Shown: positions 34,301 through 37,300 of the stretch, one piece after another
Layout of the letters: every line of letters starts with the position of its first letter
Position numbering within the stretch: the first letter of the stretch is position 1
Assembly: GCA_026874595.1 (NCBI GenBank)
Contig: CM049314.1
Span: 25,183,729-25,247,728 of the forward strand
DNA: 64,000 nt
Direction: 5' to 3'
Source: Sipunculus nudus
Taxonomy: Eukaryota; Annelida; Sipuncula; Golfingiida; Sipunculidae
Made by a program: the position numbers and the translations under genes
The notes under the pieces: generated by a model
What the model was told of the DNA's origin: nothing
Seen by the model: only the letters and a program-made list of their open reading frames with translations
Database searches by the model: none

Positions 34301-37300
34301 GCTAGCATCACCAAACATTTTGCAAATAATCAGTCATCCAAAAAACTATATTGGATTTTGTTTATTTTATTTCTAACTGCATTTTCTTAGATTTTATAGG
34401 GAAAAAGCTAAAAAAGCTTTAAAAATCTTCTTCTCCGAAACTGTCTAGCCAAATTGTCCAATATTTAACAGGAATGATCCCTAGAACAATCTTTCTCAAG
34501 TTTGTTCGAATGGTTCCAGTTCGGAGATTTTTGGCTGAGTTACAGGAGGTTGAACTTTGTTACCTGTGCAAAAAAACATATTAAAATTTAAATCTCAGAA
34601 ACGGCTGGAGCTATCATCACCAAATGTTATGCCAATGTTGGTCACATAAGTCATATCTGAAATTGAGGTATTGGTGACCTGAGTCATTTTACCATATATG
34701 TTAGCTGTGTGATGCTGTTACATCTAGCCTGGCACCAGTTTATCAGCATCTATTACATCATGCCACTTGACATTTAGATTTCATGTTATCTTTGGTTAAT
34801 ATTGACAAGAAAGTTTTTTTAAAAGCTAGATTTATGATTTAAGTTATTCATCATACCAGGCAATGTTACAATCATGGATATTCAGCTCTCTGTGGCTATA
34901 TAAAGACAACTGTACGTGGATTCTAAATTTTTGGTATCCCTACTCAACTTAATTCAAGAATTTGCCATCAATGAGATATATCTGTATTTTAATTTTGCAT
35001 TCAGTATGTATCCATAATAATTTTACATATATTCCTGATTTCTTTCTTATAAAAAGTCAGCTGAAAAGCATTTCGTATTGGGAAAATAAATTTCAAAGTT
35101 ATTACAAGTAGGGACGACTTTTGTGTACAGATGGCAGCACTTGGTTTACCATTGGCAGATTGCCAGTGCCTTGATGTTGGCCATTAGCCAAGATGATGTC
35201 AGCTCTGTAAATAGTTTTGGCACAGTGCCAGGATTGGAAGAAGTGCAGCCAGGTATAGGTCAAGAGTTAACTCAGTGCAGTAGCTGCATTCTATTTATAG
35301 CTTTGGCAGACTGCTCACTGAATCATATTTGGCACCAAAGTGCAGCCTGAATCTATTTATAGCTTTGGCAGACTCCCAACTCTGTCAGATTATGCAACAG
35401 GTCAAGAGTTCACTCATTGCAGCTAGGTACAGGTCAAAAGTTCACTCAGTCTAGCCAGGTGCAGGTCAAGGGTTCACTCAGTGCAGTAGCTTGAGGCAGC
35501 AATTTGTCACATGTCACTCGGGGGCAACTGCCTTACTCACCTAAGCCTTGTCAGCCCAGTGCATCAAACTCTGGGAAGTTTGCTGTATTGGACTGATATT
35601 TTGACCTGTCTATGCCTCTTTGATGGTATTCTCATTTGCAAGACATGGGTGCCACCTACATTGACTTTTGCTGTGTATGCACCTGCTTATTTCTACAGAG
35701 GATGTTTATACATCAGCCTAAAATTGGGCATGTTTATACATATCAGGTAGCTTTATAGTGTACAAAACTGGTGGCGCCACCTACAATAATTTTGCACAGT
35801 GTATGTCCCGCCTTATTTCATAGGAGGGGTTTGTTTGACATACTGGTGGTGCCAGCTACAGTCATTGTATCCGCCAAAACAGAGTTTTGTGGATACTATG
35901 TTTTCAGTCGGACGCCGATGCTACCGCCATCGCCGCATAGGTTCCGGTGAACTCCTCCACACTCACTGGGCAGAATTTTTTAAAATTTGGAATTATGATC
36001 GGTCACATGTGAACTGCTGCGCCCTCATTTTTGGTTGACCTCTGACCTTTCCTCTATGCCCAGTGTCCATTTGTGTGTCTGTTTCCACACATAAACCCAC
36101 ATATCTCGGGAACCGTTTGACCGATAAGGCTAAAGATTTTGCACAAATGTAGCCCTTGAAAAGCTTTATAACATACACTAAAATGGTGGCACCACCTGCC
36201 ACCATTTTTGCACAGCGTCCATCTGTTCATCTGCCTTGGGATAAAAACACTCATATCTCAGCATTGGTTGGACTTATCCACCTGAAATTTTGCATGTGTA
36301 TACATTCTGGACAGCTTTCTTGATTTTATGACAGGTGGCGCCACCTACGTTCACGTTTAAGCTGCAGACATCCAAGCTCATATCTCGGGAACCGTTTGAC
36401 CAGTTGGGCCAAAATTTTGCATGTGTATAGATCTCCCATAGCTCTTTATCATATGCAAAACTGGTGGTGCCACCTGCCACAATTTTTGCACAGCGTCCAT
36501 CTGTTCATCTGCCTTGGGATAAAATCACTCATATCTCGGCAGTGGTTTGACATATCCCCCTGCAAATTTGCATGTGTATAGATCTCACATAGCTCTTAAT
36601 CATACACAAAATTGGTGGTGCCACCTGCCACCATTTTTTCACAGCATCCGTCTGTTTGTCTGCCGTGGGCTAAAATCACCCATATCTCAGTAGTGGTTTG
36701 ACTTATCCATCTGAAATTTTGCATGTTTATACATCTTGGATAGCTTTCTGGATTTTTTGGCAGGTGGTGCCACCTACATTTATGTATATGCTGCAGACAT
36801 TCAGGCTTATATCTCAGGACTGGTTTGACTTATTCCCCTGAAATTTTGCATGTGTATAGATCTCATATATCTTTTAATCATACACAAAATTGGTGGCACC
36901 ACCTGCCACCATTTTTGCACAGTGTCCGTCTGTTTATCTGCCTTGGGATAAAAACACTCATATCTCTGCATTGGTTAGACTTATCCACCTGAAATTTTGC
37001 ATGTGTATACATCCTGGACAGCTTTCTTGATTTTATGACAGGTGGCGCCACCTACATAAACATTTCGGCTGCAGACATCCAGGCTATTATGCAACACACC
37101 TCACTCTATTTCCCCTTGCCACTCAATCTATGCCTCACTTCACCTTTCCCACTCTGATTTTGGCAGATACACGTAGTCGCTTGTTGACTACCCATATTCT
37201 AGTTTTTGTGTTGTGTGCACCCATGCCAGAATTGCAGCAGTGATGTTTGTTTAATTGTTTCTTGTTCTAGTGTTTAGTACTTGCATTGTTCATATACATG

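Follow-up and report, generated by a model that had tools for sequence, protein, structure and literature searches.

Architecture of the locus

The window considered here, a stretch of 64,000 nucleotides on contig 9 of the Sipunculus nudus genome (1.43 Gb in 153 contigs), carries two copies of a composite repeat, the second of which is interrupted by an insert of 1336 bp (Table 1). The left flank of copy 2 runs to ...CAGCTACAGTCATT, gives way to an insert that reads GTATCCGCC...CTAG, and resumes as TTTTTGTGTTGTGTGCACCC, with CTACAGTCATT on the left and TTTTTGTGTTGTG on the right of the inserted bases. The original prediction had described these extra bases as starting with GTATCC and ending with an inverted repeat, a hairpin and CTAG; every one of these features can be read at the locus, and copies elsewhere in the genome share the boundaries. 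No stop-to-stop frame of at least 120 amino acids is present in the insert, referred to below as the inner element. The interrupted composite repeat, here the outer element, is itself HINE-like to judge by its structure: its 3′ end has the form CACAGGTTCG-CATT-AGGCCTGTAGGCCT-TGTT, both ends of the element carry an inverted repeat, and a palindrome lies on its 3′ side.

Table 1. Positions of the two elements and their parts in the window
Feature	Position	Strand	Remarks
Outer element, copy 1	about 1380-4080	+	No insert; 5′ end TTTTTAGTGAACCTGTGAGC at about 1375-1394
Uninterrupted site in copy 1	3899-3906	+	...CACCTACAATAATT followed by TTTATGTTGTGTGCACCC; junction 3903/3904
Outer element, copy 2	34269..37396	+	Split by the inner element; 5′ end and ~550 bp of internal sequence missing
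Extra outer tandem unit	35794-35866	+	Copy 2 only; internal deletion of ~54 bp; ends in the target TCATT
Inner non-autonomous element, probably Helitron2/Helentron type	35867..37202	+	1336 bp; 35865-37202 if the 5′ TT is counted in; boundaries common to other copies
Inner 5′ end	35867..35896	+	13-base inverted repeat GTATCCGCCAAAA inside the 5′ hairpin; from genome matches and folding
Inner central repeats	36133..37012	+	Start-to-start spacing 278, 151 and 278 bp
Inner 3′ inverted repeat	37158..37170	-	12/13 match to the 5′ end
Inner 3′ palindrome/stem-loop	37173..37191	+	11 bases to the 3′ terminus, CTAG included
Outer 3′ end	37365..37396	+	Inverted repeat CACAGGTTCG, palindrome AGGCCTGTAGGCCT, TGTT
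Diverged inner-family 3′ remnant	37643..37716	+	Just downstream of the outer element

The first 13 bases of the inner element recur inverted near its other end with a single mismatch, and the first 9 of them are identical in four independent copies of the inner family. The 5′ hairpin is unusually stable (z -6.2; 0 of 200 shuffles fold as well). The folding energy of the 3′ hairpin in the window is unremarkable (z -0.86; 37 of 200 shuffles are as good); the palindrome nevertheless keeps its distance of 11 bases from the 3′ end, with at most 2 mismatches, in all 22 copies whose ends were fetched (see “Inner family across the genome”).

Inner family across the genome

The ends of the inner element are widespread. 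Counted over the whole genome, the 3′ end pattern has 9,297 matches (at most 1 mismatch) and the 5′ hairpin pattern 11,817 (at most 3 mismatches), and the reversed control of each has 0. Searching with the 1336-bp segment gave 62 matching pieces from the 40 candidates scored, the best of 11,895; among the matches scored, besides the window copy, 14 span bases 1-1336 and two span 1-1334, at 93-96% identity. We read 28 loci, picked for their resemblance to the window's insert and hence not a random sample; some are truncated or rearranged. Where the 5′ end is intact it is GTATC, with GTACC in one, and where the inner 3′ end is intact it is CTAG or a one-base variant of it. With boundaries shared among copies, and thousands of end matches against none in the controls, the structure in the window is not a product of chance.

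Pairing of the ends gives a further view of the family. On chromosome 1, all 100 3′ ends and 70 of the 100 5′ ends among the matches listed were paired, the other 30 5′ ends lying outside the range of the 3′ ends. Within 20 kb there were 34 pairs in the right order, of which 24 span 884-1734 bp; the control pairing in the wrong order gave 6 within 20 kb and 0 within 4 kb. Lengths of the 24 short pairs, by a measure that omits the last dozen bases or so of the element, cluster mostly near 885, 1165, 1440 and 1720 bp, with one apart at 1322, and these steps of ~278 bp equal the 278-bp central repeat seen in the window.

Twenty-two of the 24 short pairs were fetched, 4 whole and 18 as ends. All but one of them (21) lie in flanks other than the outer element, in a set that is not fully independent: one is an outer copy filled by an insert of 1.72 kb, and two have a host repeat in common. 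The inner sequence of filled outer copies differs by ~20% over the first 170 bp from four short independent copies, and among the loci read the window insert's own subfamily had no copy outside the outer element.

Target sequence, empty sites and the additional TT

The bases around the insertions are as regular as the ends. TNATT precedes GTATCC in 21 of the 22 end-fetched copies, against a background in the window of 1.0% per position, and TT follows the inner 3′ end in all 22. The expectation that copies with the same ends would lie between Ts thus holds on the right in 22/22 and on the left in 21/22. TNATT was considered as a new target motif and dropped, since the Helitron2-type elements FoHeli1 and FoHeli2 are reported, in the published description as far as consulted, to insert after TNAT (PMC5148889).

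Most of the 28 loci read share both flanks with the window's insert. This is the pattern that would speak against an insertion, and the empty sites were therefore tested. Copy 1 in the window had been proposed as the empty site; it is indeed uninterrupted, but it has one outer tandem unit fewer than copy 2 and is not its exact counterpart. Allowing 1 mismatch at most, the genome has 1,506 matches to that exact counterpart, CAGCTACAATCATTTTTGTGTTGTGTGCACC (the last outer unit, carrying the AGC and TCATT variants), and 1,038 to the filled right junction; the reversed control is 0 for both. The outer repeat is thus abundant in both states. With a 123-bp query laid over the uninterrupted site, the best 40 of 1,466 candidates all cross the junction, with 93-100% identity; copy 1 is among them. 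Of the remaining 39, 20 were fetched, and every one reads TAATT or TTATT and then TTTGTG, free of the insert and of any footprint.

These sites bear directly on the idea that the composite repeat contained the segment from the outset, the empty copies being products of deletion. In its favour, about a thousand composites have the segment at one and the same site and agree in the right flank, and the flanks shared by most loci read point the same way; yet deletion would have had to leave no footprint in any of the 20 fetched empty copies and to produce the exact empty site 1,506 times, and the same ends occur in other flanks in 21 of 22 end-fetched copies, with end patterns in the thousands. 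We regard an ancestral origin as scarcely credible, and the case that the original prediction had named as contrary to it was not seen.

Insertion leaves both host sites longer than the element accounts for if the latter begins at GTATCC. The outer site reads TCA-TTTTT-GTG when empty and TCA-TT-GTATCC...CTAG-TTTTT-GTG when filled. A second, unrelated host repeat (3,432 matches when the pattern may include as many as 8 free bases) has the empty form TATTATATAA-TTT-AAAAAAG in most of 100 places among the matches listed, and its filled form at locus L109 is TATTATATAA-TT-element-TTT-AAAAAAG. Each site gains exactly TT. When the element is read as TTGTATCC...CTAG, the base on its left is A in 21/22 copies, it starts with TT in 21/22 and ends with CTAG in 21/22, and the base on its right is T in 22/22; so read, it lies between A and T, and no target duplication is needed. 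A 2-bp duplication of TT would match the letters equally well. Of the proposed insertion into a T-run without target duplication, then, the T-run stands, and freedom from duplication depends on whether the two additional Ts are the element's own start.

The same gain of TT at two sites, in a short, non-coding insert with inverted repeats at its ends, is what a MITE mobilized by a cut-and-paste transposon with a TT target duplication would look like. The layout of the repeats tells against such an origin: the inverted repeat is terminal on one side, lies ~32 bases inside on the other, and is followed there by a palindrome, an asymmetry that belongs to Helitron2/Helentron elements in the parts consulted of two published descriptions (PMC4067079, PMC5148889). 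Rep genes, searched for with the Helitron_like_N profile, are moreover abundant in this genome, and a MITE is accordingly a very unlikely identity for the insert.

Spread of the nested pair

Filled copies extended upstream give an outer unit of ~3.8 kb with its insert. Its 5′ end is AGCGAACCTGTGAGC in three of the four extended copies and AACGAACCTGTGAGC in the fourth, and in L059 and L061 a short GTC-rich stretch follows it. With no more than 2 mismatches, the outer 3′ end matches the genome 9,880 times (control 0); it was read in 21 of the 28 loci, with differing sequence beyond; three loci (L004, L005 and L026) look seated in related repeats downstream of it. In the four extended filled copies (L002, L003, L007 and L009) both outer ends are present and the flanks differ, L003 having a deletion near its outer 5′ end.

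Read from the inside, the picture is the same. The inner 3′ junction was matched in 34 relatives from two sets of loci (25 + 9), and all 34 continue into the outer element, as does L144 by alignment only; no copy in an outer flank stops at the inner 3′ end among the loci chosen by similarity to the window's insert. Seventeen aligned filled copies diverge on average by 2.45% from their own consensus, a figure that excludes four further aligned filled copies, whose lengths differ, and any filled locus outside the alignment. Filled copies also share variants in the flanking outer sequence. The insert probably entered the outer element once. With the exact empty site present 1,506 times and the filled junction 1,038 times, the pair appears to have spread together; on the simplest account a single insertion took place, and the outer element then transposed carrying the insert along.

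A different account of the spread, which leaves the class of the inner element untouched, is that the pair was not transposed as a unit and that filled copies arose by gene conversion or recombination through the shared tandem repeats. Recombination does occur, as locus L021 illustrates. This locus has an inner 5′ end in a new flank together with an outer 3′ end, and was considered as a bypass of the inner end, a reading that alignment rejects: its first 170 bp are 90-94% identical to the four independent copies and 78-83% to filled copies, and its last 115 bp are 95.7-100% identical to filled copies, save one misaligned row at 61.7%. It is, on that alignment, a recombinant of an independent inner-family 5′ part with a filled composite 3′ part. 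Against exchange of this kind stand the differing flanks around both outer ends of the four extended copies, the shared outer variants and the mean divergence of 2.45% among the 17 aligned copies; as the general route of spread it appears improbable, and joint transposition remains our preferred account.

Nesting at this family extends beyond the pair. Two loci, L019 (near 1000) and L133 (near 462), start near inner position 110 after a foreign flank, which raised the possibility of a recurrent start within the insert; the foreign flank ends in the 3′ end of a third family at a T-run, that possibility was rejected, and we read both loci as a third level of nesting, with the third family in the T-run at inner position ~110. 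At L009 an inner-family 3′ end directly follows the outer 3′ end, an instance of nesting in the reverse order. The diverged remnant downstream of copy 2 in the window (Table 1) is 83-85% identical over 72 bp to three of the four independent copies and 87% over 47 bp to the fourth.

Rep/helicase genes and a third end type

A search of the genome with the Helitron_like_N profile gave 143 matches from the best 150 of 195 candidates, seven of them in open frames of more than 2,000 codons. A single frame, that at L032, was scanned over most of its extent; it carries Helitron_like_N and OTU domains, with a PIF1 helicase and Exo_endo_phos in its C-terminal part, an order that, judged from the predicted domains, is the Helentron layout. 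Stretches of 3.4-3.6 kb were fetched around 30 Rep matches. In the 3′ flanks of 15 Rep loci neither inner ends (0/15) nor outer ends (0/15) were seen, and the partial 5′ flanks of three Rep loci likewise held no inner or outer ends. An autonomous partner with the ends of the inner element, which the original prediction had suggested looking for, was accordingly not found at the 15 Rep loci.

A third type of end, CAGCTGAGC...TGACCCATGGGTC...CTTGTT, does occur beside such genes, at 3 of the 15 loci (L153, L154 and L156), and matches the genome 11,558 times when up to 2 mismatches are tolerated (control 0). At L154 it is found ~1 kb downstream of the stop codon of a frame that has Helitron_like_N and PIF1 domains and in which Exo_endo_phos fell below the cut-off. 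One HINE-like end type is thus tied to autonomous Rep/helicase elements, and the frames together with this end beside them make it likely that autonomous elements are present in the genome. At L156 the HINE-like end stands about as far from the Rep match, and L161 was noted for the third end type as well. With ~9,000 to 12,000 matches to each of the three end types, it is suggested that such elements form a large part of the repeats of this genome.

Classification and comparison with known elements

Published descriptions, as far as consulted, give the hallmarks of Helitron2/Helentron elements as asymmetric or subterminal inverted repeats, hairpins at the ends, central tandem repeats, insertion in T-rich sequence, and empty sites (PMC4067079, PMC7492417, PMC5148889). 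The paired inverted repeats, the hairpins at both ends, the tandem repeats, the T-rich site and the empty sites described above support the assignment to Helitron2/Helentron that had been proposed from the window. Membership in this broad group is supported, and so is the term HINE-like; a HINE in the strict sense derives from an endonuclease-bearing Helentron. What can be read directly comprises the ends, the copy numbers, the length steps, the target, the empty and filled sites, and the outer ends in differing flanks; building on these, we put at roughly 0.92 the probability that the segment is a non-autonomous element of Helitron2/Helentron type that inserted into an outer HINE-like element and was then carried as its cargo.

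The closest likenesses are divided among several known elements. HINEs of the mite Metaseiulus occidentalis and DINE-1 of Drosophila are described as non-autonomous Helentrons (PMC4067079, as far as consulted). The inner element resembles them in its subterminal inverted repeats (theirs being 12-15 bp), 3′ palindrome, T-rich target with two or more Ts on either side and empty sites, and resembles DINE-1 in a 5′ inverted repeat that overlaps the terminal one. It differs from both in the 3′ terminus CTAG, in the palindrome 11 bases away, and in the conserved A to the left of the site (21/22). For the mite HINEs the same description leaves the placing of the flanking Ts open. The proto-Helentron of Phytophthora infestans, from the same source, shares a 3′ CTAG and, if the two additional Ts are the inner element's own start, also a 5′ TT and insertion between A and T without duplication, but is an autonomous element of ~14 kb, whereas the inner element is short and non-coding, its inverted repeats are paired, and tandem repeats occupy its centre.

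FoHeli1 and FoHeli2 of Fusarium oxysporum are, by description, alike in their asymmetric terminal inverted repeat, hairpins at both ends and insertion after TNAT, and unlike in being fungal, in starting with TCAG and in ending with ATTTT (PMC5148889, as far as consulted). Cg_HINE of Crassostrea gigas, again by description, has satellite-like central repeats between left and right modules, T-rich sites, an 11-12 bp subTIR with an adjacent inverted repeat on the left, and a palindrome on the right (PMC7492417, in the parts consulted). Cg_HINEs have been found inserted in other repeats; the present case differs in its repeat step of 278 bp and in the HINE-like structure of the element into which the nested copy went. 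Literature titles and the openings of abstracts yielded no description of a HINE carried by another HINE, although one may exist in print. The kind itself is already known, and the nested pair, which travels together, is a thoroughly documented case of it.

Measured against the canonical Helitron (Helitron1), the inner element has a CTRR terminus with a hairpin 10-12 bases upstream (CTAG in 21/22; 11 bases in 22/22), and it sits between A and T in 21/22 copies if it starts with TT and otherwise between two Ts. The 5′ TC of canonical Helitrons is absent, the inner 5′ end being TTGTATCC or GTATCC.

Possible mechanism and its implications

A rolling-circle scheme can be envisioned for the pair. 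A Rep/helicase supplied by some autonomous relative would recognize the inner 5′ inverted repeat and hairpin, and the same protein would recognize the 3′ inverted repeat, the palindrome and CTAG. One strand would be copied by rolling-circle replication and the copy joined between TNA and TT, in a single such insertion into the last T-run of an outer HINE-like element. The outer copy would stay mobile, replicated from its own ends, with the inner element and its 3′ palindrome as cargo, and joint transposition of outer and inner sequence would then have produced about a thousand copies. Along this route the inner 3′ end would not have been used as a stop by the copying machinery of the outer element.

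If the inner terminator did not stop outer replication, as the 34 of 34 continuing relatives suggest, end recognition may be separate for families that share a genome. It is a tentative proposal, to which we give somewhat less than even odds, that 3′ ends are read in a family-specific manner, with a complete inner terminator ignored by outer replication, and that the inner element mixes repeats of Helitron2 type with a 3′ end and a site between A and T of Helitron1/proto-Helentron type. If true, the pair would constitute a natural test of family-specific 3′-end reading, and the inner family would offer a mixed Helitron2 and Helitron1/proto-Helentron form in an abundant non-autonomous family. 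The filled (1,038) and empty (1,506) sites provide base-exact, genome-scale material for one rolling-circle insertion, and the pair is a case of one rolling-circle element as the cargo of another; together they make 3′-end recognition and the spread of satellite-like repeats testable.

Other features of the window

Just downstream of the elements, at 37715-38674, lies an open frame of 319 codons, acidic- and serine-rich and possibly an exon of a host gene. Positions 15199-17336 hold about 2 kb of short imperfect tandem repeats of CTACACCTGTCAT type with strong GC skew, and a tandem array with a period of about 180 bp and 76-82% matches occupies 6713-8805.
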